Shown piece after piece: positions 38,550 to 58,028 of a stretch of 64,000 nt of DNA; within the stretch, counting starts at the first letter, position 1, and every line of letters starts with the position of its first letter. The position numbers were made by a program, and so were the translations under genes. A model generated the notes under the pieces. That model was not told where the DNA came from, ran no database searches, and saw only the letters and a program-made list of their open reading frames with translations. Origin of the DNA: Parabacteroides distasonis ATCC 8503 (lineage in GTDB: Bacteria; Bacteroidota; Bacteroidia; Bacteroidales; Tannerellaceae); contig NC_009615.1 of the NCBI RefSeq assembly GCF_000012845.1, positions 2,571,501-2,635,500 of the forward strand. The letters run 5' to 3'.

Positions 38550-39215
38550 TCACCTGAATCTTTTTGTCAGGACCACAGCTGCTAACTGAGGGCGATGAGC
38601 TATAAAACTCAAACCCATTAGCGCTACATCTACAAAAAAATCTTGGACTTGCTTACTATGGGATTTCCCAGTTTTACACCAGCTAACAAAATGTTCACAA
38701 TTATTGCTTACAAGATTGTATTCGCCAAAATCTATAAAGCCTGCAAACACTAACAAAGCCCTATTCCGAGCAATAATCCTGCTATTTAAATCTTCATGCT
38801 TAGAATCTACTCTTTTAAGCTTACTATTCCACTTCTGAAATGCCCGATTGCTTACTTCATGTAAGTCTTCCTTTATTATATGTGGAACAGATAGAGTATC
38901 ACCTCTAGAGAAATGAATAACATGTTCTTCTTCGATAACTATCAAATGATGCATAGCAGGAAAGAGACCACCTATCATAAACCGATGCTGGTATTGTTGT
39001 CCTATTTTAGATTGATGAAACATTTTAAAAAAAGTTTCGTTGCCAACCATGCAAATCAAAGCAAAATCGTCACCAAAAACACTTCGTAATTCAACTAGTG
39101 CTGGCATTGCTTTACCTTTTCCTTTACTATAGAAATAAGAGGCATTATTATAAGCAATAGACCTATTCATAATTAAACTGTGGCGTGTATTCATATATCT
39201 CTGCATTGATTGCAA
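38550..39215 (-). CDS. LRAT-like (NlpC/P60 superfamily) protein
   Basis: 221 residues. The last ~140 contain an LRAT-type pattern: AMHHLIVIEEEHVIHFSRGD (His followed by the 'VIHF' strand) and, 80 residues later, VSNNCEHFVSWCKTG with the NCEHFV nucleophile motif. Known members are thiol acyltransferases or hydrolases. The first ~80 residues are of unknown type. The ORF start overlaps the upstream small ORF by 53 bp; later ATGs (such as MNTRH) could be the true start. AT-rich; sits between the phosphatase and the TviB-type gene. Confidence 0.65.
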   Translation of the reverse strand: MQSMQRYMNTRHSLIMNRSIAYNNASYFYSKGKGKAMPALVELRSVFGDDFALICMVGNETFFKMFHQSKIGQQYQHRFMIGGLFPAMHHLIVIEEEHVIHFSRGDTLSVPHIIKEDLHEVSNRAFQKWNSKLKRVDSKHEDLNSRIIARNRALLVFAGFIDFGEYNLVSNNCEHFVSWCKTGKSHSKQVQDFFVDVALMGLSFIAHRPQLAAVVLTKRFR

Positions 39216-39420
39216 ATCTTTTAACTGAAACCTTCTCTATACTAAAGAATATCAAAGAAGCCATTTTGAAACATCGTTGAAATATTACTTCTCCCTCAGC
39301 ATATATAGCAAATTGATACCTGTTGGATGAATATTTTGCAACAATAGGAGTTCCAAAAGCAATATGCTGCAATGAAGATTTATTAATCATTTCATGATTC
39401 CTCAAAAAATCACCAAACAT
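39163..39420 (-). CDS. Small LRAT-N-terminal-like protein
   Basis: 85 residues. HIAFGTPIVAKYSSNRYQFA followed by IYAEGEVIFQR resembles the first strands of an LRAT fold (G-x-hydrophobic entry, then 'hxhIYhGdGxVIHF'), but the catalytic histidine is replaced by glutamine (YQF). It overlaps the full LRAT-like gene in another frame. It could be a partner, a degenerate first domain separated by a frameshift, or chance. Confidence 0.4.
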   Translation of the reverse strand: MFGDFLRNHEMINKSSLQHIAFGTPIVAKYSSNRYQFAIYAEGEVIFQRCFKMASLIFFSIEKVSVKRFAINAEIYEYTPQFNYE

Positions 39421-39445
39421 AAGAATAGTTTAAAATACATCAATT

Positions 39446-39803
39446 AGGCGCACTCCGCATGGCAGACATCGACCGCTACCATCGCTCCCTCGGTTGGCTG
39501 GGCTGCGGCTACCATTATGTGATTCCTACAGACGGCACCATCGAAGCGGGCAGACCCGAAGAAATGATTGGAGCACATTGCAAGAACCATAACCGTCATT
39601 CCATCGGGGTATGCTATATCGGTGGTTTGGCTGCCGATGGCAAAACTCCTATGGACACCCGAACACCTGCCCAAAAGAAGGCTTTGGAACGGTTGCTTGC
39701 GGACTTGCACCGCAGATTCCCTAAAGCATTGATTGTGGGTCATCACGATTTGGAACCTACAAAAGCATGCCCCTGTTTTTCAGTGGCAAGTCTTCGATTT
39801 TAG
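39446..39803 (+). pseudogene. Truncated N-acetylmuramoyl-L-alanine amidase
   Basis: Open frame on the strand opposite the operon. It matches the middle of T7-lysozyme-type amidases used in Bacteroidales: ADIDRYHRSLGWLGCGYHYV, RPEEMIGAHCKNHNRHSIGV, DTRTPAQKKAL and VGHHDLEPTKACPCF. The start of the enzyme, including the 'IIIHCSAT' zinc-ligand block, is missing; the frame opens at about 39446 after an unrelated stop. The end diverges right after ACPCF, where it overlaps the phosphatase 3' end. Zinc ligand and catalysis are therefore lost. Confidence 0.75.
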
Positions 39804-40530
39804 TTGACTTCCTCGCTATGGTTGTTTCCCAAGCTGCAAGACAATGAGTGTCACTGCCAGTCAAGTAATAGAAGCCGTTCTTCAACAGCCATTCGGCTTT
39901 CTTTTTGACTTCCGACCCGTAGCCACCAACGATGCTGGACAAATTGAGCTGGAAGAGTACGTTCATCCCTTTCAGTTGCCGGTAATCACTTTCATCCATA
40001 TACACATACCGTTCGGGATGTGCCAGGACGGGGACATAGCCTTTCGACTTGATGCGGAGCAGGATGTTGTTCAACCCCATCGGTGGGTTAAAATAAGAGG
40101 TTTCCACCAACAGGTGTTTCCCTTCCTTCCCCAAAGGAAGCAGGTCATTCTTCGCGAGCCGCTCTTCAAACAGGTTGTCGAGCATGTTTTCCGCAGCAAG
40201 GTGAAGAGTGATTTTGCCTTGATAGGCGGCATTCAGTTCCATAAACCGTTGTTTCAAATCCTCCGTACGGTTCGAAATGTCCTCCATGATGTGGGGTGTC
40301 AGCCAAACCTCGCTGATACCCAACTCCTCATAATGGGAGAGAACTTGCAAGGATTCCTGCATCGTCTGCACCCCGTCGTCCACACCCGGCAGGATGTGCG
40401 AATGCCAGTCGGTAAACCCCTCGAATATACCGCTATCTTTCAGTGGGATACGTTTCCTAAAACACCACACGACAATGTCTGTTTTTTGTATAGGATATCT
40501 ATTTTTTTTAATTATTTGACAACCAACCAT
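39757..40530 (-). CDS. CpsB/CapC-type tyrosine phosphatase
   Basis: 257 residues, PHP-fold metal-dependent phosphatase. FTDWHSHILPGVDDGVQT provides the first metal ligands, VWLTPHIMED, HLAAENMLDN, VLAHPERYVYM and LTGSDTHCLA the rest. It is expected to dephosphorylate the C-terminal tyrosines of the Wzc-like kinase, its direct upstream neighbour, thereby controlling chain length or export. Its C-terminus (IEDLPLKNRGMLL) reads into the truncated amidase, so the end may not be original. Confidence 0.9.
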   Translation of the reverse strand: MVGCQIIKKNRYPIQKTDIVVWCFRKRIPLKDSGIFEGFTDWHSHILPGVDDGVQTMQESLQVLSHYEELGISEVWLTPHIMEDISNRTEDLKQRFMELNAAYQGKITLHLAAENMLDNLFEERLAKNDLLPLGKEGKHLLVETSYFNPPMGLNNILLRIKSKGYVPVLAHPERYVYMDESDYRQLKGMNVLFQLNLSSIVGGYGSEVKKKAEWLLKNGFYYLTGSDTHCLAAWETTIARKSTKIEDLPLKNRGMLL

Positions 40531-42951
40531 TTACCCCCCCCGTTTTTTATCCGAGCCATAATGGTATCCCGAACCGTAACCGTAGTGATAACCATAGCGG
40601 TAGCCGTAACGGTATCCGTAGCGACCACCGCTTCCCTCGGTTCCATTCAGGATCAGGGACATGTTCTTGTATTTCTTCTCCTCGTAGATTTTCTCCAGTT
40701 CAGCAAGCATACTCCGTTCAAGTAATCCTGCACGAACCACGAAAATGGTACGGTCTGCCAGCTTCTCGATAATCTGCGTGTCGGCCACCAGTTCGATGGG
40801 CGGACAGTCGATCAGCACATAGTCGTATTGCCCCCTTACGGTATCTATCACCTGCTTCAGGCGTTCGTCGAACAATAGTTCCGTTGGGTTGGGAGGAATC
40901 GTCCCCACGGGTAGTATATCCATAGATTTTTGCTTCGGATCGGATACGATGATTTCGTTCAGGTTATCGATACTGCCTCCCAAATAGTCGCTCAATCCCC
41001 TGGCAGGAGAGTCGATATAGGATGACGCAGATCCGTGACGCAGGTCACCGTCGATTACCAGCACTTTCTTCCCTTTGATGGCAAAGCTCACGGCGATGTT
41101 CATGGTCAGGAACGATTTGCCGCTGCCCGGATTGAACGAGGTCACGATAATGACATTCGATGTCTTGTCCTTGCCGGTCATAAACTCCAGGTTGGTACGC
41201 AATACGCGGAATGCCTCGTTGATGATGTCACGGCTACCCTCCTTGACGACAACGGCCTTGACTTCCTGTGGCTTCTTTCCGAATATCCCTTTCTTCTTTC
41301 TTGTGAACAGCGGAATCTCACCGATGAACGGCACGGTCACGTTTTCCAGGTCTTTTCTTCCCCGTACACGGGTATTCATGTTCTCGCGCATGAAGATGAT
41401 GACTACCGGAATGAGCAGCCCCAGAGCAAATGCGACCATAAAGATGTTTTTGCGTACAGGAGATGTCGGCAACATACTGCCGTGCGGTGGAGTGACAATG
41501 CGGGTATTATAGGCCGTAAATGCTTGCGAGAGTTCGTTCTCCTCGCGTTTTTGCAGCAGGAACAGGTAAAGAGCCTCCTTTACCTTCTGCTGGCGTTCCA
41601 CCGAAAGCAGGTATTTGGCCTGTGTAGGGTTGGCCGCTATACGTGATGTTGTCTGTTGCTCCGTCTGCCGCAAACTTTTTATCTGCGAATTCAAGGTTAC
41701 TATCTGATTGTCGATAGACCTGATTATCGCCCCACGCATGGATGCCAGAGCCTGATCCATATCCACGACCAGCGGATTTTCTGCGCTGCTGTTCGCAACC
41801 AGGCTGTTACGCTGCAACAGTTGTTTGTTGTATTCGGCGATCTGCGATTCAATATTGGCACTTTCTATGCCGGAGTTGGCCGGAAGCAATTGAGTGCGGT
41901 TGGCATCGTTGGCTAAATAGTTCCGGATATAGCGGGTCATGTAGAGCTGGTTGTTCAAGGCCAGGATCTGTGCGTTGGTCTGACTACTCTGCGCCATGTA
42001 CATGCTCGATGCCGCCTGCACGTCGGGTAACAGGTGTTCTGACTTGTAGGAGGAAATATCCTCGTCCACGTTCCCCAGCTCCTGTTCGATTACGCCCAGA
42101 CGCTCATTGATGAACATTGAGGTACTGACAGCGATCTGGTTCTTGTCCTTCACCCAGTTCTCGTTATAAACGGAAATCAACATGCTCAATACATCTTCCG
42201 CCCGCTGAGTGGAGTTATCCTTTAGGGACAAGTCTATAACCGACGCTTTCTCATTATTCAATGAAATGGACAGATTGGACGAGTAGGAGTTTACAGCATT
42301 ATACAAACTGGATTTGCTTATATACAATATATATGCCTCGCCTTTCACGTAATTGGGTGTTGTATGGATAATGATTTTTCCCAATGGTGTAGGAATGGAG
42401 TCAAGCAAGCTTCCCTTTATATCCTTTCCGTCAAGCTCCGTCCCGTTACGTGTGAAGTCGGATAGGAATAACGTGCCGTCCGGCTGTACTTCCAGCGTAA
42501 AACCGGCTGATTCATTTTCAGGCAAGTCACTTATCGTTACATCCACTGGTAATGTCAGTCCATAGGCCACCTTACGGTGGAATTTTCCCGGAACGAAGTA
42601 ATTCATATCCAAACGCAACCGTTTAACCACCTCGGTCATTAAAGCCGGCGACTGAAAGGTGATGAGTTCGTTATTCACATTTGTTCCGGATTGGAACAGC
42701 CCAAACTCCGAGAAGGATTCCAGATCCGAGGAAACCGACTTGCCTTTGGAATCTTCCTTGATCAATACCGAAGCGGTACGTGTATATACGGCAGGGGTAC
42801 GTAACAGATGGACGGTAGCGGCACCGACCGTTACCACTAAAGACAAGACGAACCACTGCCACTTCGCAAGGCACAGGAACAACAGATCCTGTATCCGCAG
42901 GAAATCATCTTGCTGTCCCGGTTTTGTATTTTTTGGGTTTATAGTCATCAT
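40531..42951 (-). CDS. wzc: Wzc-like polysaccharide copolymerase / tyrosine autokinase
   Basis: 806 residues: an N-terminal Wzz domain with a first membrane helix (WFVLSLVVTVGAATVHLL), a long periplasmic coiled-coil region, a second membrane helix (FMVAFALGLLIPVVIIFM) near 510 and a cytoplasmic kinase. The kinase has Walker A SFNPGSGKSFLTMN, Walker A' VLVIDGDLRHGS and Walker B VLIDCPP. The C-terminus is a tyrosine cluster (YGYRYGYRYGYHYGYGSGYH), the usual autophosphorylation tail. It is followed directly by the phosphatase gene. Confidence 0.94.
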   Translation of the reverse strand: MMTINPKNTKPGQQDDFLRIQDLLFLCLAKWQWFVLSLVVTVGAATVHLLRTPAVYTRTASVLIKEDSKGKSVSSDLESFSEFGLFQSGTNVNNELITFQSPALMTEVVKRLRLDMNYFVPGKFHRKVAYGLTLPVDVTISDLPENESAGFTLEVQPDGTLFLSDFTRNGTELDGKDIKGSLLDSIPTPLGKIIIHTTPNYVKGEAYILYISKSSLYNAVNSYSSNLSISLNNEKASVIDLSLKDNSTQRAEDVLSMLISVYNENWVKDKNQIAVSTSMFINERLGVIEQELGNVDEDISSYKSEHLLPDVQAASSMYMAQSSQTNAQILALNNQLYMTRYIRNYLANDANRTQLLPANSGIESANIESQIAEYNKQLLQRNSLVANSSAENPLVVDMDQALASMRGAIIRSIDNQIVTLNSQIKSLRQTEQQTTSRIAANPTQAKYLLSVERQQKVKEALYLFLLQKREENELSQAFTAYNTRIVTPPHGSMLPTSPVRKNIFMVAFALGLLIPVVIIFMRENMNTRVRGRKDLENVTVPFIGEIPLFTRKKKGIFGKKPQEVKAVVVKEGSRDIINEAFRVLRTNLEFMTGKDKTSNVIIVTSFNPGSGKSFLTMNIAVSFAIKGKKVLVIDGDLRHGSASSYIDSPARGLSDYLGGSIDNLNEIIVSDPKQKSMDILPVGTIPPNPTELLFDERLKQVIDTVRGQYDYVLIDCPPIELVADTQIIEKLADRTIFVVRAGLLERSMLAELEKIYEEKKYKNMSLILNGTEGSGGRYGYRYGYRYGYHYGYGSGYHYGSDKKRGG

Positions 42952-42964
42952 ATCTGATTCTATG

Positions 42965-43756
42965 TTATTTTACGATCAACACGGTAATGGTGGTCAGCAA
43001 TGAGGCCAACGACATCCAGAAGGAGGCAGAACGGACGTTATTGCCGTTGACAGTCGCCTGCCGTGCTTTCATCGAGTTGGGTTCCACATAAACGATATCG
43101 TTCTGCTGCAGATAATACACGGGAGAGGCATAAAGGTCATATCCCGAATTCAGGTTGACCTGATACAAGGTCTGTTTGCCGTTTTCCTCCCGTTGTACCA
43201 AGACATTCTCCCGTTTCCCGTAGACGGTAAGGTCTCCGGCCATGCTTAAAGCGTCCAAAAGCGTCAGCTTGTCCTTGTCGATATTGAAACGTCCGGGGTT
43301 GGCAACCTCACCCAACACGGAAACGGTCAGGTTCATGAACTCAACTGTAACAACGGGGTCTTTCACGAGATTCTTCGAAACCAGTTCCTCTTTTATATAC
43401 GAGGCGATTTCCTCGCGTGTCATTCCCGCCACATGGATATGCCCCAACACTGGAAAATCGATATCTCCATCCTTGTTGATCGTATATCCTGATATCCCCT
43501 GGCTATTGGATGTTCCCGATGCCGTACCGATCTGCCTGGATATGATCGGAAGATTGAAAAGGTTCATCAACAAGGGGTCCTTGCTGTTGACCAGTATTGA
43601 GATCTTGTCTTCGGGACGCACCCGGATTTCCAGCGGGTTCAAGACTTGCTCTGCGGTACCCGGTTTCAGGTCCGTGAAATAAGCGACTTCCGGTGTGGCA
43701 CATGATCCCAGCAGGAAAGCCACGGTCAATAAGAATAAAATGTATCTGATTTTCAT
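42965..43756 (-). CDS. wza: Wza-like polysaccharide export lipoprotein
   Basis: 263 residues. Lipoprotein signal ILFLLTVAFLLGSC (lipobox cysteine at about 19), a polysaccharide export domain (NPLEIRVRPEDKISILVNSK, YTINKDGDIDFPVLGHIHVA) and an SLBB part (VSVLGEVANPGRFNIDKDKL). It is much shorter than E. coli Wza, the common Bacteroidetes form. It should form the outer membrane channel partner for the Wzc-like protein. Confidence 0.93.
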   Translation of the reverse strand: MKIRYILFLLTVAFLLGSCATPEVAYFTDLKPGTAEQVLNPLEIRVRPEDKISILVNSKDPLLMNLFNLPIISRQIGTASGTSNSQGISGYTINKDGDIDFPVLGHIHVAGMTREEIASYIKEELVSKNLVKDPVVTVEFMNLTVSVLGEVANPGRFNIDKDKLTLLDALSMAGDLTVYGKRENVLVQREENGKQTLYQVNLNSGYDLYASPVYYLQQNDIVYVEPNSMKARQATVNGNNVRSASFWMSLASLLTTITVLIVK

Positions 43757-43769
43757 ATTTTATTGATTT

Positions 43770-44891
43770 TTATTTGTTGGTTTTCTGTTCCGATTGAAGT
43801 TGTCCGATAGATTTCGTCAGCCTGATGTTGGCAAGAGTCCATATCAGGATATCGCCCAGCACGATCCAGTTCACATTGAGATAAAGGGACAGAAGAATAT
43901 TGAACAGTATGAATATAGTTGACACGGAAACAATGATAATCATGGCATTGCGCTGCTTTATTCCGAGAGCAAGCAGCTTATGGTGGATATGATTCTTGTC
44001 CGGCAGGAACGGGTTCTTCCCGTTGCGTACCCGATGCAGGTAGACTCGGACCACGTCGCAGCAAGGAGCCAGCAGGGGTGAGAAAGCCAGCACCATCGGG
44101 TTTATATATCCTGTATTATCATCCGTTCCGCACATAATTAGTTTGAGACTGAGAAAACAGAGCATCATGCCGACGGTCAGGCTACCCGTGTCGCCCATGA
44201 AGATCTTCCGGCCATGTTCGGGATTTCCGAAAACATTGTAATAGAAGAACGATACCAACACTCCCAATGTGGCGAACGCCAGTATGGCATAGACATACTG
44301 GTGGAGCATGAAAAAAGTCAGACCGTAAAACAGGCAGGCGACACCGCATAGCCCGGAAGCCAATCCGTCAATGCCGTCAATCAGATTGATGGCATTGATG
44401 ATGAAGACCACGATTAAAATGGTCAAGGGATACCCTAACCATAACGGCACCACATGAATGCCTAGGATACCGTATAGGTTGTTGATATATACCCCACCGG
44501 CGATAAGCATCACGCCGCACAGAATCTGGATGACAAACTTGGCACGATAACGGATGCCGATCAGGTCATCGGCCATGCCAACCAGATATAGTACCATGAT
44601 GGAGCAGAAAGCAAAAGCCAAAGGCCGTACATCGTTTCCGATTTCAGACAACATTTCCGAATGTCCCAGTACCATATTGATTCCCAGTAATAAGGCTATT
44701 GTGAAAAAGACTACCGGCTTGAACGCGATACCACCCAATCGGGGCACCGCACAATGATGTATCTTCCGTTCATCGGGAAGGTCGAACAGCTGTTTGCGAA
44801 AAGCGATTAGCAGAATCTGGGGAATGACGATACCCGCACAGAGAACACAAAGCAAAAATGCCAGTGAACAATTTACAATCCAAAAATACAT
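43770..44891 (-). CDS. WecA/MraY-like undecaprenyl-phosphate sugar-phosphate transferase
   Basis: 373 residues with about ten membrane segments. Conserved polar motifs of the polyprenyl-phosphate glycosyltransferase family 4: DERKIHHCAVPRLGGIAF, GMADDLIGIRYR (DD), INLIDGIDGLASG, FMGDTGSLTVG and PDKNHIHHKLLALG (HIHH). It should start each repeat unit by moving a sugar-1-phosphate onto undecaprenyl phosphate. Second gene of the operon, 62 bp after upxY. Confidence 0.93.
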   Translation of the reverse strand: MYFWIVNCSLAFLLCVLCAGIVIPQILLIAFRKQLFDLPDERKIHHCAVPRLGGIAFKPVVFFTIALLLGINMVLGHSEMLSEIGNDVRPLAFAFCSIMVLYLVGMADDLIGIRYRAKFVIQILCGVMLIAGGVYINNLYGILGIHVVPLWLGYPLTILIVVFIINAINLIDGIDGLASGLCGVACLFYGLTFFMLHQYVYAILAFATLGVLVSFFYYNVFGNPEHGRKIFMGDTGSLTVGMMLCFLSLKLIMCGTDDNTGYINPMVLAFSPLLAPCCDVVRVYLHRVRNGKNPFLPDKNHIHHKLLALGIKQRNAMIIIVSVSTIFILFNILLSLYLNVNWIVLGDILIWTLANIRLTKSIGQLQSEQKTNK

Positions 44892-44953
44892 ATATTCAGA
44901 TATTGTTTTTTATTTGCGTAAAACCGTGAATGAGGATTCCAGACTTTTCCATA

Positions 44954-45514
44954 TCAGGAAATGACTTCAATCAAATCGGGATGAACCTCAGCCGATATCC
45001 CCATAATCCCCTCAAGCATTACGACCACTCGGCGGTTGCGTTTCCCTTTTACCCGCATAAACACACCCTTAACTCCATCAAGCTTGCCGCCGTGAATACA
45101 TACACGGGTACCTTTCCGTACGTCGATTTCATCCGGCTTATAATAGGCCGTATCCTTCTCATGCAGGGAAGCTATTTGGATGAAACTGTCCATCTGGTCG
45201 TCCGGCACGGTGATATATTCCATACCCGTGCTTTTTTCCCACATGGCGAATTGCAGGAAGTTGTACCGTTTCTTGAATTCGGTGATCTGCGAGTGGCTGG
45301 CGTGGACGAAAACCAGACTCGGTATGACCGGCACTAGCCTTGTCGACTTCACCCCGTGGTAAGTCCTTACGGCGTAATGTTTCGGAATGAAATATTCTAG
45401 ACCGTATTCCTTGTCCTTCAGCCTGTCCTCCGCCATTTTCTCATTCTTGTAGGCGCGCATGACGAACCAGCGGACCTGCTTTTTTTCTTCCGCCGTAGAA
45501 AAACTCATACCCAT
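44954..45514 (-). CDS. upxY: UpxY-family transcription antiterminator
   Basis: 186 residues. NGN domain start RWFVMRAYKNEKMAEDRLKD, followed by LEYFIPKHYAVRTYHG and a conserved SLVFVHASH strand; the C-terminal KOW segment is RKGTRVCIHGGKLDGVKGVF. UpxY proteins prevent premature termination in the leader of their own capsule operon. It is the promoter-proximal gene, as in Bacteroides. No upxZ-like gene follows it. The leader between the first inverted repeat and the start codon is 168 bp. Confidence 0.93.
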   Translation of the reverse strand: MGMSFSTAEEKKQVRWFVMRAYKNEKMAEDRLKDKEYGLEYFIPKHYAVRTYHGVKSTRLVPVIPSLVFVHASHSQITEFKKRYNFLQFAMWEKSTGMEYITVPDDQMDSFIQIASLHEKDTAYYKPDEIDVRKGTRVCIHGGKLDGVKGVFMRVKGKRNRRVVVMLEGIMGISAEVHPDLIEVIS

Positions 45515-45682
45515 ATTGCCGGGACTATTTTATAGGTGAGGATATACCCCTAGTTCATGCCAATTCGTATATTGGTATGTATTACAACGGATTACATTTC
45601 CTTTATTCATAATATCCACTGTCAGTCCCATACTTTTGACAAAGTGTACAGACCTCATTTCCGGGGCTTCTGCCGCTACTTC

Positions 45683-45890
45683 TCTTGGCAAGAGAAATAT
45701 ACGGGGATCATATTTTACGTAAATGACTGACGGACAGATAGAAATACGGAACGGCATTATGATACTTATCCGACATATGTTAAGCAAATACACTCTGTAT
45801 GAATGTTTTGGTTAATTTTATTACCCGTTTTCTATTGTTTTTTCAATATTTTACGTAACTTTGCGCATTGTAATATTTCTCTTGCCAAGA
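45683..45890. repeat. Invertible cassette 1: 18-bp perfect inverted repeats
   Basis: TCTTGGCAAGAGAAATAT (45683-45700) and its exact complement ATATTTCTCTTGCCAAGA (45873-45890) flank 172 bp. Each repeat is itself near-palindromic: TTCTC-TTGGCAA-GAGAA on the left, TTCTC-TTGCCAA-GAAAA on the right. Arms around a 7-nt spacer are what a tyrosine recombinase needs, and only the central base sets the direction. Confidence 0.85.
45834..45863 (+). promoter_or_regulatory. Promoter in cassette 1 (faces right, OFF)
   Basis: Perfect -7 box TAACTTTG at 45856-45863; ATTG at 45834-45837 as -33 element, 18 nt apart. It points away from upxY. Inversion between the repeats would move the box to about 45717-45710 on the minus strand, giving an upxY leader of about 190 nt. 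Confidence 0.8.
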
Positions 45891-46041
45891 AAACGAGCCG
45901 TATGCTCAACAATTTTTATTGTATTACAAAACGCCTTCAAAATCCATTTTTAAAAACATCCGGTTTTAAATTGTCAATAAGAATATCTCCAACGGTATCC
46001 TGCCGCTGTATTGACAGTTCATGGATCTTTTCCGGTACTTT

Positions 46042-46237
46042 TCTTTTTAAGAGAAATATCGGGAAGGGATAGCATCTGACAATCAGAATTATATATAAAT
46101 CCTGAAAGTGATCTGTTCAACAATCATGCCGGCATTTGAAACATTTTCCTTTGGAGAAAACAGTTTTTTATCATACGGACGGGTACTTTCCCATATTTTG
46201 ATTATCTTTGCAATGTGTAATATTTCTCTTAAAAAGA
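46042..46237. repeat. Invertible cassette 2: 18-bp perfect inverted repeats
   Basis: TCTTTTTAAGAGAAATAT (46042-46059) and its complement ATATTTCTCTTAAAAAGA (46220-46237) flank 160 bp. The arms and the AAATAT flank are the same as in cassette 1, but the spacer is TTTTTAA instead of TTGGCAA. The right side, GTAATATTTCTCTT, is identical in both cassettes. Confidence 0.85.
46203..46210 (+). promoter_or_regulatory. Promoter box in cassette 2 (faces right, OFF)
   Basis: Perfect -7 box TATCTTTG, ending 9 nt before the right repeat, exactly as in cassette 1. The -33 element is weak. Inversion would place the box at about 46076-46069 on the minus strand. Confidence 0.7.
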
Positions 46238-46292
46238 GAAGCAGGAACGGCACAGCCTTTGTCCGTTATTCTACGTGCCGCATCCGTCCCCG

Positions 46293-47507
46293 TTATAAGG
46301 ATTTGAGTATGATGTCGTTTGCCTTGTCCACTTGTGAGGTGTCCAGCGAGGCGAGGTAGATTCTGGTCGTGTTTTCCGAATCATGTCCCATCGCCTCGCT
46401 GATGGTTGCCAGCGGCACATTCTTGCTTCTGGCAATACTCGCCCATGCATGGCGCGCTACATACATGGTGAGCGGCATGCCGAGCCCGAGCCGTTTCCCG
46501 AGTTCCTTGAGTTTTCCGTTGATGAAATGCGCTGCGCTCCTGTACTGCCGCACGGCATCCTTGGCCGTATCCCTGATGACCGGAAAAAGGTAGGGGCTGT
46601 CATTGTGGCCATACCTGTCCAGGATCTCCTGCATGGGCTTCTCCCATTTAATGGACAGACGCCGGCCGGTCTTCCGCCTGCGGTAGGTCAGCACGCCGCT
46701 CTTCAGATCTGCCTTTTTCAGGTAGGCGATGTCGACGAACGACATGCCCCGAGTATAAAAGCTCAGCATGAACATGTCCCTGGCGTATTCCATGCCCGGG
46801 GAAAGGCGCAGGTCCAGGTCACGTATCATGCGGACCGCTTTCAATGGAACAGCACGTTTTACGGTCTTGTCTATTCCGGTGTAGACATGCTTGAAAGGGC
46901 TGCGCTGTACCGTCAGTTCCCTGTCCACCGCACGGTTGTAGACGGCACGCAGGTTCCGCATGTAATAGGAGGTGCTGTTCGGACATATCCCCTTGTCCTT
47001 CAGCCATGCCTCGTATTCCAGCATGAGGGTGGAGCCGATATCCTCCAGCGGGATGTCGCCGTCCCTGCCCCGGAAGTGCGTGAAGCTGTTCAGTACGGTG
47101 GTGTACCTCTCGGCGGTGCGCTTCTTGCCGACACGCTCCAGTTCCTCCACGAGCCTCTTTCCGAAGGCCATGAAATTATGGCTGTCCTCAGGGGGCGGGT
47201 TGTGAAAAAGTTCGACAACCCTGCCGGCGGGATAGGTACCGCCGGAACGTTCCAGTCCGGCGATGATACTTTCCAGACGGCGGATGTCTTTTTCCATCCG
47301 CTCCTTTAACGCGAGCAGGAGGCTTCTTCTGGCATCACCGGATACCGGCAGTATGATTTCCGACGTGCGTCCGTCCCATTCCGAAGGGAACAGCCTGTAA
47401 CCGGTGTTTATCTGGCGCGCCACCCTTCCGTGGATGACCTGGAAATAGAGCGTCCCCTCCCTGCCTTCCACGGACGAGGACCTGAATTTGGTTTTGATTG
47501 TTGCCAT
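46293..47507 (-). CDS. Tyrosine site-specific recombinase (Tsr / integrase)
   Basis: 404 residues from the ATG at 47507 (MATIKTKFRSSSVEGREG), chosen because the longer frame runs into the upstream gene. N-terminal arm-binding domain, SAM-like core-binding domain (MAFGKRLVEELERVGKKRTA) and catalytic domain with Arg in FYTRGMSFVDIA (about R253), YVARHAWASIA, the GHDSENTT histidine and the nucleophile in TRIYLAS (about Y384). The usual His of H-x2-R is Tyr, as in many Bacteroidetes members. It ends 55 bp from cassette 2 and begins 7 bp after the mobilization gene upstream. It may be the capsule invertase, the element's integrase, or both. Confidence 0.9.
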   Translation of the reverse strand: MATIKTKFRSSSVEGREGTLYFQVIHGRVARQINTGYRLFPSEWDGRTSEIILPVSGDARRSLLLALKERMEKDIRRLESIIAGLERSGGTYPAGRVVELFHNPPPEDSHNFMAFGKRLVEELERVGKKRTAERYTTVLNSFTHFRGRDGDIPLEDIGSTLMLEYEAWLKDKGICPNSTSYYMRNLRAVYNRAVDRELTVQRSPFKHVYTGIDKTVKRAVPLKAVRMIRDLDLRLSPGMEYARDMFMLSFYTRGMSFVDIAYLKKADLKSGVLTYRRRKTGRRLSIKWEKPMQEILDRYGHNDSPYLFPVIRDTAKDAVRQYRSAAHFINGKLKELGKRLGLGMPLTMYVARHAWASIARSKNVPLATISEAMGHDSENTTRIYLASLDTSQVDKANDIILKSL

Positions 47508-47514
47508 AGTGCAG

Positions 47515-48276
47515 TCATTTTGAATTAGGATTGTCCAGTTGCTTCCTGATTTCCTGTGCCTCCCTGAACAGCCGGTGCGCCAGACTGTCCTTGTAGGCCG
47601 CCATTTCATGGTTACGGATGCGGTTCCTGACCGAGTCCTCAAAAGCGGTCACCAGCCTTTCCACACGCCGGATCTTTTCCTCGTCTCGCTCGATGGTGAA
47701 ATGCTTCTCAAGGAAGGCGATGTCGGGATCATCTCCCGGCAGGCAGATCCTGATGGCTCGGTATTTCAAATCGGCATCCTTCAAAAGCCGGTTCGTGCGG
47801 TACTGGTTGCAGTTGGCCCAGACGGAAACGACCAGTGCCAGGATCAGTGCTGAAGCTGTCGTTACCACCGCCTTGGATGCGCTTTCCAGACGGTAGGTCA
47901 CCAGTTTGTGCTCCGGTTCCTTTTTTAACAGGACCATTCTCTCATCCAGCCGTCTTACCGTTTCCTTTACCGCCTGGCTGTCCTGCCGCAGGCAGTCCCT
48001 TGTCTTTTCCATTTCCCCGGCAAACGTTTCGGCAGACAACGGCCTGCCTTCCGACAACCGGGCGGTATGGCTACGTACCGCTGCTATTTCCGAACTGTTT
48101 TTCTCCACTGCGGATTGCAGGCGTTCCAGACGGATTTTCAGTTCCGCAATCCCTTCCGGGGAAATGGTCCGGTTTTCAACTGTGGGGCTTGTGCCTTCCA
48201 CGGGCAGCGCCTCCACTTTCTTCTCGATCCTTTCAAGGCATCCGTAGATGCCTTCCAGATAGTTTTCCTGTTTCAT
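47515..48276 (-). CDS. Mobilization-associated coiled-coil membrane protein
   Basis: 253 residues. A long helical region rich in E, K and R (about residues 5-120), one membrane segment (VVTTASALILALVVSVWANC, about 135-155), then a charged cytoplasmic or periplasmic tail. Genes of this form follow relaxase genes in many Bacteroidales mobilizable elements, but no function is established. It lies between the relaxase (31 bp) and the recombinase (7 bp) in one operon. Confidence 0.75.
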   Translation of the reverse strand: MKQENYLEGIYGCLERIEKKVEALPVEGTSPTVENRTISPEGIAELKIRLERLQSAVEKNSSEIAAVRSHTARLSEGRPLSAETFAGEMEKTRDCLRQDSQAVKETVRRLDERMVLLKKEPEHKLVTYRLESASKAVVTTASALILALVVSVWANCNQYRTNRLLKDADLKYRAIRICLPGDDPDIAFLEKHFTIERDEEKIRRVERLVTAFEDSVRNRIRNHEMAAYKDSLAHRLFREAQEIRKQLDNPNSK

Positions 48277-48307: not shown

Positions 48308-49240
48308 TTACAAACTCCTTCCTTTCCTGCGCTTCTTCTTTTTCCGCAGGCGTTCCGCCTCTTTCTCGTCCTCCGTCGGTGCCACCGACGGCATGAACAC
48401 GCCACCCGTACCGGTGACTTCGACCAGGTTATCAATAATAGAACCATGACTTTGTTCATGGTACGGTTGCTTTTGGGAAACGTCATTTTCCAGGGACGTG
48501 ACATGGTTATGCTCCAATGCCGCATCCAGCCTTGACCAGCAGAAACTGCGGTCAATCTCACTTCCCTTGAATGACAGACCGTCCTTTATAAAGCGGATGC
48601 CCTGCACCTCACTGGTATTTCCCTTGTACTTGAATTCCATTTCCACGCCCATTTTTAAGAGCTTATTTTGAAATTCCTTCCATGTATTTGCACTTCTCAA
48701 AGCTTCCTTAACCGCACGATATATCTCGTATTTCACCCTTTCGGAAGCGTGCAGTTTTTCCGTTTTAACGGCCTGTTTGCCTTCGGAATAGGTGAGCGAA
48801 TACTTCTCCTTGAGCATTTTCGTCACCCTCTCGTTGCGCCTGAAATCGTTGCTGTCGGAAATCACCTTCCCGTCGAAGTCCACCCGGTTGAAGACGATGT
48901 GGCAGTGCGGGTTGTCCGTCCCGTGATGCCTCACCACGATGAACTGCGTGTTCCGTATCCCCATCAGCTCCAGGTATTCCTCCGCCACCCTTGCCATAAA
49001 GGCATCGGTCAGCTTCGGTGCGTCCTCCGGCTTGAAGCTGAGCGCGATGTGCCCCACCGGCTTCGTCACGTCCGGATTCAGCAGGCATTGCCACCGGAAA
49101 CTTCGCGCCATCTCTTCTGCCGTTCCCAGCAGCACGCCTTCCGAGGCGATGATTTTCGCGTCGTCCTTCTGCGTCACGTAGCGTATGCAGCCGCCGAACG
49201 AGCGGCCTTTTTTGATCTTTCCTATCATGAGGCTATCCAC
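48308..49240 (-). CDS. Relaxase / mobilization protein MobA (MobP-like)
   Basis: 310 residues. Relaxase signs: MIGKIKKGRSFGGCIRYVTQ at the start, where a Tyr often acts as nucleophile, and a histidine triad region (VVRHHGTDNPHCHIVFNRVD) for metal binding. It should nick oriT and pilot the strand during transfer. Overlaps mobC by 8 bp. Confidence 0.92.
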   Translation of the reverse strand: MDSLMIGKIKKGRSFGGCIRYVTQKDDAKIIASEGVLLGTAEEMARSFRWQCLLNPDVTKPVGHIALSFKPEDAPKLTDAFMARVAEEYLELMGIRNTQFIVVRHHGTDNPHCHIVFNRVDFDGKVISDSNDFRRNERVTKMLKEKYSLTYSEGKQAVKTEKLHASERVKYEIYRAVKEALRSANTWKEFQNKLLKMGVEMEFKYKGNTSEVQGIRFIKDGLSFKGSEIDRSFCWSRLDAALEHNHVTSLENDVSQKQPYHEQSHGSIIDNLVEVTGTGGVFMPSVAPTEDEKEAERLRKKKKRRKGRSL

Positions 49241-49667: not shown

Positions 49668-49760
49668 TGCCCTCCCTGCAACCGCCGGGCGCGGGGGAGC
49701 AAGGGTTTTCGGGAATCCGGAAACATAACCTTGCTATTACTTTGCAGTAATAATGACCGG
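49668..49760. other. oriT candidate upstream of mobC
   Basis: GC-rich segment with clustered inverted repeats: TATTACT-TTGC-AGTAATA (49735-49752) and GGTTTTCGGGAATCC near 49704. On the minus strand it reads TATTACTGCAAAGTAATAG, then GCAAGGTTATGTTTCCGGA and CCCTTGCTCCCCCGC. oriT regions usually sit just before mobC in these elements, so position and structure agree. The nick site cannot be placed. Confidence 0.4.
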
Positions 49761-49835
49761 TTTCCATTACATGTCAACCGATCACGACACATAGCCGTGT
49801 CAAAGCCATAAGTTGATTCTTAAAAATTATATATT

Positions 49836-49981
49836 GTAAGCAGCTACAGGGTGAACAAAATAACCTTCGAGGTGAAAGACCCATGGGAGCATTTGTCCCT
49901 GTAGCCGGCTTACATCCGTTGCCCAGAACACAGTTAGGATTTGAGACTTCGGGTCTGTTAATAGCTTTAGTCATGAGCAAC
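49836..49981 (+). ncRNA. Bridge-RNA candidate of the IS110 element
   Basis: Two stem-loops lie just upstream of the transposase. Domain 1 pairs GTAAGC (49836-49841) with GCTTAC (49908-49913) and GCTACAGGG (49843-49851) with CCCTGTAGC (49897-49905), around a 45-nt loop with an inner ACCT-TCG-AGGT hairpin. Domain 2 closes with GTTGC/GCAAC (49918-49922/49977-49981) and an inner AGAC-TTCGG-GTCT. IS110-group elements carry a bridge RNA with a target-binding and a donor-binding loop in this position. Confidence 0.65.
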
Positions 49982-50011
49982 CATTATTAATCTTATTAAA
50001 TCATTAATTTT

Positions 50012-51025
50012 ATGCTGGTCAAAGATTTATCAACCAAGATTCATGTCGGAATTGATGTATCCAAACTGACACTGGATGCCTTTATCCTGGAACGCAAGCT
50101 TCACAGGAAGTTCAAGAACAATTCCAAAGGTTTCACCTCGCTCTTCCAGTGGGTGAAAAAACAGTCTCGTACCGCCCCTGACACCATCCTGTTCTGTTTT
50201 GAACATACCGGTCTGTATTCCTTGCTGCTGGCCCTTTTCCTTGAGGAGAACGGCCTGTTTTATTCCATGATCCCGCCATTGGAAATCAAGAACTCGTTAG
50301 GCCTGACCAGAGGCAAGAACGACATGGTCGACTCCATGCGCATTGCGGATTTCTCACTCCGTTATGAAGACAAACTCCATATTAGCAGACTGCCAGCCCG
50401 GAAAATACGCAATTTGCATTCCCTGCTGACTCTCAGGGACAAACTTGCCAAGAACATGCGTGGATACATCATTACCTACAATGAATCCCTGAGGGTCATG
50501 CAACCCGATGATTTCCCGGAACTCTTCTGCGGCTACAGGAATACGATTGCCAAGCTTAAAGAGGAAATCGGGAATGTGGAGAGATCATTAAAGGCCATCC
50601 TAAAGAGCGATACCAGGCTATGGACCACTTATAAGCTCGTGACCGGCATAAAGGGGATCGGTCTTATTGTTGCGTCCTACATGATAGTGTACACCCATAA
50701 TTTTACTCGCTTTGATACCTGGCGTAAGTTTGCGTGCTTCTCCGGCATTGCGCCTTTCGACCATGAGTCCGGAACGAGCGTGAAGGGGAAGACCAAGGTC
50801 AGTCCTATAGCCAACAAGCGGCTTAAGACCATGCTGCACCTGTCCGCTATCTGTGCGATCCATACCGATACGGAGTTGAAGGAGTACTATCACCGCAGAC
50901 TGGCTGAAGGAAAGCCTAAAATGTCTGTTATCAACATAATCAGAAACAAGCTTGTATCCCGTGCTTTTGCCGTTGTCAAACGAGGCACGCCGTTTGTTGA
51001 CATTAAAAGATATATGGACGTTTAA
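50012..51025 (+). CDS. IS110-family transposase (DEDD type)
   Basis: 337 residues. N-terminal RuvC-like DEDD domain: HVGIDVSKLTLDAFIL (first D), FCFEHTGLY (E), TRGKNDMVDSMRIADF (D, D). C-terminal Transposase_20 domain with LVTGIKGIGLIVASY and the conserved serine in DHESGTSVKGKTKVSP. The protein works with a guide RNA to recombine target and donor. Intact from start to stop, so likely active. Confidence 0.95.
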   Translation: MLVKDLSTKIHVGIDVSKLTLDAFILERKLHRKFKNNSKGFTSLFQWVKKQSRTAPDTILFCFEHTGLYSLLLALFLEENGLFYSMIPPLEIKNSLGLTRGKNDMVDSMRIADFSLRYEDKLHISRLPARKIRNLHSLLTLRDKLAKNMRGYIITYNESLRVMQPDDFPELFCGYRNTIAKLKEEIGNVERSLKAILKSDTRLWTTYKLVTGIKGIGLIVASYMIVYTHNFTRFDTWRKFACFSGIAPFDHESGTSVKGKTKVSPIANKRLKTMLHLSAICAIHTDTELKEYYHRRLAEGKPKMSVINIIRNKLVSRAFAVVKRGTPFVDIKRYMDV

Positions 51026-51332
51026 TTCTCTCCCATAAAAGATCATCGGTCGGGGAACGCCTGAGCGGCAAGGGGCGGGACCACCCGTCCCGACGAGCGG
51101 AAAAATTCCATTCCGTGATGTTCCAAATGGACCTGTAAACTCCCTTTTTAGGGGAGTCCGGACTGTTTTATGCCTATTTTTTGCACCTGTTTGCATTTTT
51201 TCTTCGTTTTTTCTTGCACATGAACTTAGGATGCTCCCCCCACAGAAAAATCCCCCCGCATTTTCCACATTGAAGCGGGTATACAGGGAACGGTGCATAC
51301 ATCGGGTATACTCCACGCCCGGTAACAGGCTG
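51026..51332. other. Gap after the IS110 transposase
   Basis: Non-coding on both strands. Probably contains the IS right end and then element backbone. A GC-rich inverted repeat occurs around 51075-51105 (GGGCGGG...CCCGTCCC) and a 6-bp hairpin ACTCCC-TTTTTAG-GGGAGT at 51139-51157. The tract from about 51231 (ATGCTCCCCCC) is discussed as a possible target half-site. Confidence 0.4.
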
Positions 51333-56780: not shown

Positions 56781-58028
56781 TCATATGGCATCGCATATTT
56801 CCTTCTCCATCTTTTCCAGCTTATGGGACAGGATTTCCATGTCGCTGCTGATCTTCTGGTTGGTTATCCGGGCATATATCTGGGTGGTTTTCAAATCCGT
56901 ATGCCCCAAAAGACGGCTTACGGTCTCGATGGGCACACCGTGCGAGAGCAGCACGGTGGTGGCGTTCGTATGTCGGGCAACATGATAGGTCAACCTTATC
57001 TTGAAACCGCACTGCCTGCCAAGTTCCTTCAATATGGTGTTGCATCTGCCGTTGCTCGGTACCGGAAATACATGATCGTCCTTGGACAGCCCCTTGTACT
57101 TCTCTATGATGCGCTTGGGAACGTCCAGCAGGCGGATGTTGGACTCGGTGTTTGTCTTGCGCCGGCGGGTGATGATCCAGAGGTTGCCGTCGAAGAAGGT
57201 CTGGAGCCGGTCGGTCGTCAGCGCCTTCACGTCCGCGTATGCCAGTCCGGTGAACACAGAGAAGATGAAGAGGTCGCGTACCAGTTCGCAGGTCCCGCTT
57301 TTCACCGGGGCCTCCATCAGCGTCTGTATCTCACGCTCTGTCAGGTAGCCCCGGTCAACGCTCTCGGGGGAGTTGATGTACCCGGCGAAGGGGTTGAAGG
57401 GAAGCGCACCGCTGTTGCGGGCGATGGAGATGACGTGCTTGAGCCCGATCATGTAACCCCATACGGTATTGGTGCGGCATTTCTTCTCCGTACGCAGGAA
57501 ATACTCGAAGTTGTTGATGAACGTCAGGTTGAGTTCCTTTAGGGGAATGTCGTCACGGCGGTATACTTTCGGGACGAACTCGCAAAGGTGCCTGTATATG
57601 GTACGGTAGCGGTTGTATGTTCCCTGCACGCGGCTGTGTCCCACTTTCTTGATGAACTCCCCGTTGTGCTGCTCGAAGAGTTTCAACAGCGTCTCGCGTT
57701 TCACGCCCAACCCGAGGCAGGCGTCCCTCAGCCTGGCGGCGGTGACATAGCCGTCGGACTGCATCAGTTCCTGGTAACGGCGGTTCACGTCCACGCGTAT
57801 CCGGTCAACCGCCGCATTGATTTTCTGCGCCTCGGCGCTCTTGCCCGTGGCACGTGCCGTTTTCACGTCCCAAAGTTTCGGAGGTACGTCCAGTTTACAA
57901 CTGAACTGCTTGATTTCACCGTCCACCGTAAGACGGCACATCAGGGGGAGATAGCCGTTGGCTCTCTCGCTGCCCTTCTTCACGTAGAAGAGGATTTTGA
58001 AAGTCGATCTGCTCATACTCGTTTTCAT
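56781..58028 (-). CDS. Tyrosine site-specific integrase
   Basis: 415 residues. Arm-binding N-terminal domain (STFKILFYVKKGSERANGYL), SAM-like domain (EFIKKVGHSRVQGTYNRYRT) and catalytic domain with R in SVFTGLAYADVKAL region, HVARHTNATTVLLSHGVP (H-x2-R), RLLGHTDLKTTQIYA (H and the nucleophile Y). This is the usual integrase type of Bacteroidales mobilizable and conjugative elements, and it is at the outer end, transcribed inward, the normal position for element integration. A TAACTTTG -7 box precedes it. Confidence 0.93.
   Translation of the reverse strand: MKTSMSRSTFKILFYVKKGSERANGYLPLMCRLTVDGEIKQFSCKLDVPPKLWDVKTARATGKSAEAQKINAAVDRIRVDVNRRYQELMQSDGYVTAARLRDACLGLGVKRETLLKLFEQHNGEFIKKVGHSRVQGTYNRYRTIYRHLCEFVPKVYRRDDIPLKELNLTFINNFEYFLRTEKKCRTNTVWGYMIGLKHVISIARNSGALPFNPFAGYINSPESVDRGYLTEREIQTLMEAPVKSGTCELVRDLFIFSVFTGLAYADVKALTTDRLQTFFDGNLWIITRRRKTNTESNIRLLDVPKRIIEKYKGLSKDDHVFPVPSNGRCNTILKELGRQCGFKIRLTYHVARHTNATTVLLSHGVPIETVSRLLGHTDLKTTQIYARITNQKISSDMEILSHKLEKMEKEICDAI

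Follow-up and report, generated by a model that had tools for sequence, protein, structure and literature searches.

The window, which is the whole stretch of 64,000 nucleotides of Parabacteroides distasonis ATCC 8503 analysed here, contains two short segments flanked by inverted repeats, cassette 1 and cassette 2, in front of a capsule operon. The question raised by this locus is whether cassette 1 is a working promoter switch, and what its orientation in the assembly may tell about the capsule. From right to left, the locus is composed of a recombinase gene, cassette 2, cassette 1, upxY and the capsule genes, with every gene reading left; the features are listed in Table 1. Cassette 1 is most likely a real and active switch, a fellow of an already known switch type.

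Table 1. Features of the switch locus and of its surroundings, in window positions
Feature	Position	Strand	Remarks
Start of capsule operon downstream of upxY	38550-44891	-	WecA-like transferase, polysaccharide exporter, Wzc-like kinase, CpsB/CapC-like protein, LRAT-domain protein
upxY transcription antiterminator, gene 1 of capsule operon	44954-45514	-	NF033644, 152.5 bits (cut-off 100)
upxY leader, cassette 1 to gene	45515-45682	-	45628-45663 invariant in four copies (alignment)
Cassette 1, upxY-proximal arm	45683-45700	+	full site TTCTCTT-GGC-AAGAGAA, 45680-45696
Cassette 1, -7 box TAACTTTG	45856-45863	+	directed away from upxY
Cassette 1, recombinase-proximal arm	45873-45890	-	site TTTTCTT-GGC-AAGAGAA (minus strand), 45877-45893
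Terminator-like hairpin between cassettes, leftward transcription	45894-45908	-	outer half-site of cassette 1 supplies the T-run; weak
Cassette 2, upxY-proximal arm	46038-46059	+	spacer TTT, site 46039-46055
Cassette 2, -7 box TATCTTTG	46203-46210	+	directed away from upxY; homologous box faces upxY in G013 (L082)
Cassette 2, recombinase-proximal arm	46220-46241	-	spacer TTT, site 46224-46240
Tyrosine recombinase	46293-47507	-	404 aa from ATG; ORF 46293-47642 begins earlier, at TTG
Relaxase	48308-49240		MobB match below cut-off
Tyrosine integrase at segment end	56781-58028		

The earlier note, made from the sequence alone, had described cassette 1 as bounded by perfect 18-bp inverted repeats, with a TAACTTTG box directed away from upxY and no TAnnTTTG on the minus strand before this gene; all three observations hold. 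The two arms, of sequence TCTTGGCAAGAGAAATAT, are exact reverse complements over 18 bp and, when mismatches are permitted, the repeat extends to 26 nt at 88%. A chance origin of the repeats was ruled out by Markov resampling: perfect inverted repeats of at least 18 bp were found in none of 2000 resamples of the 778-nt intergenic stretch, while repeats of at least 15 occurred in 1 and of at least 12 in 51 of them. Similarly, in 100 resamples of the whole window no perfect inverted repeat reached 18, the longest being 15. A palindrome, TTACGTAA, is present near both ends of cassette 1, at 45715-45722 and 45851-45858, the second copy overlapping the -7 box; it may be regarded as a possible candidate operator.

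In its longer form, the -7 box of cassette 1 (TAACTTTGC, 45856-45864) fits the Bacteroidales pattern TAnnTTTG(Y). Its -33 region contains just a weak TTG (45835-45837), 18 nt upstream of the -7 box; neither cassette has a strong -33 element, and relatives vary in this respect. Between 45400 and 48400, exact TAnnTTTG boxes are found at 45631, outside both cassettes, at 45856 and at 46203, all on the plus strand, and none on the minus strand. The motif alone was rejected as evidence for a promoter, its count in the window being at chance level (55 matches, 51.4 expected). A sigma-70-like match pointing at upxY (45783-45756, minus strand) is also within what chance produces (7 matches, against a mean of 3.8, sd 2.0). 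The box of cassette 1 is nonetheless credible, because its distance to the recombination site is fixed across relatives, as reported below.

All four sites of the window fit the quasi-palindromic pattern TTYTCTT-NNN-AAGAGAA. When the genome, a single contig of 4,811,379 bp, was searched for TTYTCTTNNNAAGAGAA at zero mismatches, only nine distinct places were found in its 4.8 Mb. The window locus and a paralogous locus (3928548-3929109) contribute four each, and the ninth is a lone palindrome, at 3278519. Allowing one mismatch gave 14 matches per strand, versus 5 and 7 for the reversed control pattern. The two spacers of cassette 1 match each other (GGC/GGC); the spacer of cassette 2 is TTT. 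A similar pattern is seen among related switches: in 39 pairs of adjacent sites, spaced by 140-260 nt, the spacers match in 30, and every one of these lies within a cassette. The nine mismatched pairs comprise eight between the cassettes of a double switch and one odd pair in locus L175. Site pairs were located by the half-site pattern alone, and were then assigned by us as within or between cassettes from the repeats; some within-cassette pairs are omitted from the count, because of distance or a spurious site (for example cassette 2 of L082 and that of L031; L174; L075).

Double switches are found at the window and at L080, L082, L031, L033/L157, L170 and L177, the second cassette of the latter being without an exact box. 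Their two spacers always differ; these amount to only four independent cases, statistically not strong, and a difference between tandem cassettes would be common by chance if spacers drifted freely.

The position of the box relative to the site is likewise conserved. When the 15-nt site core is taken as reference, its outer edge and the 5' end of the -7 box are separated by 34-37 nt in 28 of the 30 spacer-matched cassettes (27 directed away, 1 toward the target); just two further exact boxes are found elsewhere in the 30 segments. With such a fixed distance, transcription is expected to begin at the site edge.

The recombinase gene adjacent to cassette 2 encodes Phage_int_SAM_5, Phage_integrase and Arm-DNA-bind_5 domains (Pfam), and full-length relatives were found; its frame is open, and 93-100% identical, across the four Parabacteroides double loci. 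It is likely to be the invertase of both cassettes. Its stop codon lies 54 nt from the first site; at many loci this gap stays within a few tens of nt (2 nt in L195, an overlap in L075), and it exceeds 350 nt in L177 and L178. Six matches to the recombinase at E up to 1e-60 are present in the genome, including itself and a near-identical copy, and at least one of the remaining ones (L161) adjoins sites with the same TCTCTT/AAGAGA half-sites: another enzyme could therefore act at the window switch. A second recombinase type was absent, at E up to 1e-70, from all the others of the 393 genomes of the order searched.

The double switch is present twice in this genome and in two congeners, G020 and G013; these copies are the only long matches found in the genome itself and in 58 relatives. 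Over the 693 nt of the switch region, identity is 97% with the paralogous locus and 90% with G020, and the orientation does not change anywhere; the match to G013 splits, at the repeats of cassette 2, into plus, minus and plus pieces. G020 and G013 agree at 100% over the inner 162 nt of cassette 2, which are inverted between them: markers on both sides confine the crossover to the shared 17-nt TCTTTTTAAGAGAAATA. Comparison of these two genomes thus reveals an inversion of cassette 2 directly. For cassette 1, a single orientation is shared by the four copies (window, paralogue, G020 and G013); its arms are perfect, and its TAnnTTTG is preserved, in each of them. Three of the copies carry the spacer GGC; in the paralogue it reads GGA, with both arms altered, a concerted change that is expected if the arms still recombine. 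A second natural inversion likely separates L162 from its counterpart L164, the two being 69.5% alike when one of them is inverted, and 49.7% otherwise.

Across the 393 genomes of the order, a sample to which G013 and G020 do not belong, switch DNA matched over only about 25-50 nt, except in the genome under study; in viral contigs, plasmids and phages nothing similar was found under the patterns used. Between a P. goldsteinii strain (L032) and Phocaeicola coprocola (L033), the upxY leader and the nearest cassette edge are identical over 303 nt, which points to a recent transfer of the switch.

Orientation was surveyed at 56 loci. Forty of them contain recombinase relatives, 20 from each of two partly overlapping listings (of 53 and 46); the 16 added loci are the window, its paralogue, G013, P. 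massiliensis, Phocaeicola coprocola, L075 and L077, which are loci of the same genome with recombinase relatives, and nine capsule loci, also of the same genome, with more distant recombinases. The exact rule (perfect arms of at least 11, exact box 20-50 nt from the arm edge) selected 44 cassettes in 38 loci: 42 of them face away from the target, toward the recombinase, and only L162 and cassette 2 of L082 (that is, G013) face the target. When cassettes are grouped into 25 sequence clusters, 23 are away only, one toward only and one mixed (binomial p ~2e-5, relatedness being only partly removed). Most of the clusters precede genes without a upxY match (tblastn).

Under laxer rules, allowing one mismatch or longer segments, 43 of 48 cassettes face away. 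The added ones are L067, L074 and L193, directed toward the target, and L188, directed away: L067 faces a upxY-like gene with the one-mismatch box TATATTCG, L074 does so with a 2.9-kb segment, and one-mismatch boxes are found in L193 and L188. The 18 loci without an exact-rule cassette were re-inspected. Left uncounted were L176 and L191 (toward; arms of just 8 nt, one-mismatch boxes), L165, L166, L167 and L196 (toward-facing box, repeats not found), L194 together with the second cassette of L157 (away; single arm on the contig), and L174 together with the second cassette of L177 (repeats present, exact box missing). In L074 (4644127-4647049 of the genome), inverted CTACT-type sites 2.9 kb apart flank genes, and a promoter-like box at the far end faces the upxY-like gene: this is possibly a large invertible segment.

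In the genome under study, all 12 exact-rule capsule cassettes, at 10 loci, face away; the first gene of these loci matches NF033644, mostly below its cut-off. That every switch of this genome is OFF was nevertheless rejected, as the capsule loci L067 and L074 face their upxY-like genes. As most cassettes face away in assemblies, this state is nothing particular to the isolate of the window, and an away-facing promoter in an assembly should not be taken as a property of the isolate. The prediction of the earlier note, that the capsule of this isolate is OFF at this switch, is supported in part. What stands is that the promoter in an invertible segment before a UpxY-type operon faces away, and that the capsule is OFF in the assembly, provided that the TAnnTTTG box is the promoter. 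An "OFF isolate", in contrast, is not shown: an assembly reports a single orientation for each locus, and not the share of cells that have it. Moreover, the state of the capsule hangs on two switches rather than one, and cassette 2 likewise faces away.

The identity of upxY, also proposed in the earlier note, is confirmed by its NF033644 score. The gene order, upxY first and then WecA-, exporter- and Wzc-like genes, is that of a UpxY-regulated capsule locus. A upxZ was not found as second gene: the gene following upxY, 62 nt off, is the WecA-like one (43770-44891), and upxZ is described as not coupled with upxY in P. distasonis (PMC9409006). An LRAT-domain protein is encoded within the operon, at 38550-39215. 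When the leader was folded together with the adjacent arm (45515-45700), it did not perform clearly better than its shuffles (z -1.04; 22 of 200 shuffles as good), and the Rfam search returned one match, far below the gathering score. The leader contains, at about 45540-45590 on the minus strand, the motif CCAAT-N6-RTTGG followed by NATGAACTANGGGTATATC, common to Parabacteroides and Phocaeicola upxY leaders; the motif is a candidate for a UpxY recognition hairpin. Terminator-like sites are about as many in the region as expected (4 found versus 3.3 expected, a weak signal).

The switch is part of a segment spanning about 41 kb (17545-58294), with the direct repeat TACTTTAAA at its borders; this repeat is 9 nt long here and 11 nt in the other two copies. 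On the basis of its integrase, relaxase and borders, the segment is a putative integrative mobilisable element, of which the capsule locus is the cargo. Two more copies, inserted between other sequences, are found at about 3.90-3.95 Mb of the same genome and in G013, with a mostly different capsule cargo. As the switch and the mobilisation genes are conserved, while most intervening capsule genes differ, the switch appears to travel with an exchangeable capsule cargo. The stretch 49735-51232 is missing from the other three copies compared and contains an IS110-family transposase gene (50012-51025), and is therefore probably a recent insertion.

Taken together, the best explanation, which we hold with high confidence, is that cassette 1 is a site-specific invertible promoter, most likely flipped by the local recombinase, and one of the two devices of a tandem. 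We infer its activity from the perfect arms, the paired change of the spacers, the intact recombinase gene next to the pair and the inversion seen, between two congeners, in cassette 2. The recombinase would bind the TTYTCTT-NNN-AAGAGAA sequences at both ends and exchange strands inside the sites, a cassette flipping when its two central spacers match; with spacers as different as TTT and GGC, the two cassettes should flip independently. In the ON orientation of cassette 1, transcription from the TAnnTTTG promoter would begin where the upxY-proximal arm has its edge, to produce a leader of about 180 nt followed by upxY and the capsule operon. As assembled, the promoter would be directed across cassette 2, in the direction of the recombinase gene and its 3' end. 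The operon would be OFF only with both cassettes facing away, and two alternative ON states may be predicted: the leader would contain one repeat arm when cassette 1 is ON, or three, along with the weak terminator-like hairpin, when it is cassette 2. If repeats between promoter and gene lower transcription here too, as described below for B. fragilis, cassette 2 ON should give less capsule than cassette 1 ON.

The picture would differ if cassette 1 were a frozen remnant, no longer inverting, with its repeats kept by descent and cassette 2 as the sole active switch. Its constant orientation in four out of four copies, whereas cassette 2 is inverted in one, fits with this; yet arms that are perfect in all four copies, a spacer that differs between paralogous loci while matching within each pair, and the site type and box distance shared with cassette 2 make a remnant very improbable. 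Just as little credit can be given to the idea that the ON/OFF label is wrong, upxY being driven by a constitutive or read-through promoter, for example by transcription of the recombinase gene through both cassettes, and not by TAnnTTTG. It would account for the away-facing state of 42 out of 44 cassettes, odd if these were always silent, and for the presence, in 44900-47700, of only a weak minus-strand terminator-like site between recombinase and upxY. It does not fit, however, with a box to site distance fixed in 28 out of 30 cassettes and a box kept in all four copies of cassette 1; the two capsule loci of the same genome that face upxY-like genes also show that silence is not universal. 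In addition, another upxY switch has been found in both orientations by PCR, and the legend describing it marks the -7 region in the ON orientation (PMC13114119).

Inversion may also be mainly due to a recombinase acting in trans, as for Mpi or Tsr19 of B. fragilis. Action in trans has been described (PMC4747536), a upxY switch with a defective neighbouring invertase is reported to still invert a little (PMC13114119), and the six genomic matches to the enzyme, two of them near-identical copies, as well as the half-sites adjoining its relatives, L161 included, offer possible actors. The mismatch-free 7-3-7 site, in contrast, is limited to the two double loci and one lone palindrome, and a near-identical recombinase adjoins each double locus; a trans-acting enzyme is considered unlikely, and the local one is preferred.

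Three causes may be proposed for the excess of away-facing cassettes: selection, an enzyme with a preferred direction, or a promoter that damps the recombinase gene which it faces. Selection, in the sense of a cost of surface structures in culture and not of a property of the switch, has about an even chance of being the explanation. A comparable OFF excess has been ascribed to fitness cost (PMC8748976). Mainly-ON switches also exist: one is PVR9 of B. intestinalis (PMC8375218), another a upxY promoter of P. vulgatus beside a defective invertase (PMC13114119), and both count against a universal OFF default. The excess spans, however, 25 sequence clusters, mostly upstream of genes lacking a upxY match, a spread that is compatible with selection too. 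Alternatively, OFF may be an actively held default: the promoter, about 36 nt from the site, would fire into the recombinase gene and damp it by antisense or convergent transcription, and a flip to ON would free the recombinase, which would soon revert the segment. Local Bacteroidales invertases would then share an orientational control of the fimE kind, and the tandem pair would act as a two-bit dial (off, weak via cassette 2, strong via cassette 1) served by one enzyme. This proposal, drawn by analogy, is a tentative one, and more probably wrong than right.

Several elements of the preferred reading, an invertible promoter flipped by the local recombinase, are already in print: invertible capsule promoters in P. 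distasonis (PMC12118408), tandem regions with an OFF excess (PMC8748976) and OFF assemblies of B. fragilis (PMC3090145). For the spacer pattern and the fixed box distance no earlier description was found in the literature searched, where subscription journals are thinly covered, so that this is no proof of novelty. A close counterpart is class IP-ARG-2 of Bacteroidales, in which two adjacent invertible regions lie downstream of one invertase (PMC8748976): tandem invertible promoters, the single invertase, similar repeats and the predominance of OFF are shared with the window, while the cargo consists of resistance genes instead of a capsule operon with upxY. The IP-ARG classes together are ON in just 4 of 96 cases, and their origin has been traced to glycan-synthesis loci on conjugative elements; the text sections of that paper on these regions mention neither the spacer pattern nor the box geometry (PMC8748976).

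The APCS2/PD capsule promoters of P. distasonis, with the repeat GCTACTYRGNRAGTAGC, also invert before capsule loci, and feature quasi-palindromic repeats and an upstream recombinase; their site sequence differs from that of the window, and a double cassette is absent from their description (PMC12118408). Their CTACT-type sites are found at other loci of the genome, many of them capsule loci, and not at the window locus. Capsule switching has been tied to phage resistance in gut Bacteroidales (PMC12118408). The Tsr19/BF2766 switch IVp-I of B. fragilis resembles the window in its local tyrosine recombinase and extracellular polysaccharide target. It is OFF in all three genome sequences, and its transcription is reported to correlate inversely with how many repeats lie between promoter and gene; IVp-I, however, multiplies repeats at the ends of one region, whereas the window has two complete cassettes with different spacers (PMC4747536, PMC3090145). 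Mpi promoters of B. fragilis share with the window the control of upxY capsule operons by invertible promoters (PMC4747536, PMC12632263). Mpi is a serine recombinase, and its repeats are ARACGTTCGT-like; the window locus features neither, its neighbouring enzyme being a tyrosine recombinase and its sites and arms TTYTCTTNNNAAGAGAA and TCTTGGCAAGAGAAATAT.

In the fimE-fimS-fimA locus of E. coli, the recombinase gene lies directly upstream of an invertible promoter and points into it, and the OFF promoter faces the recombinase. FimE acts mainly in the ON-to-OFF direction. By analogy, and with no homology of sites or promoter type implied, the window may be compared to this system for its layout, for an OFF direction toward the recombinase and for an ON-to-OFF excess. 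With two cassettes of different spacers, one neighbouring enzyme, a paralogue and a natural inversion between congeners, the locus is a clean comparative case, which makes both spacer-coded independence and orientation feedback directly testable.
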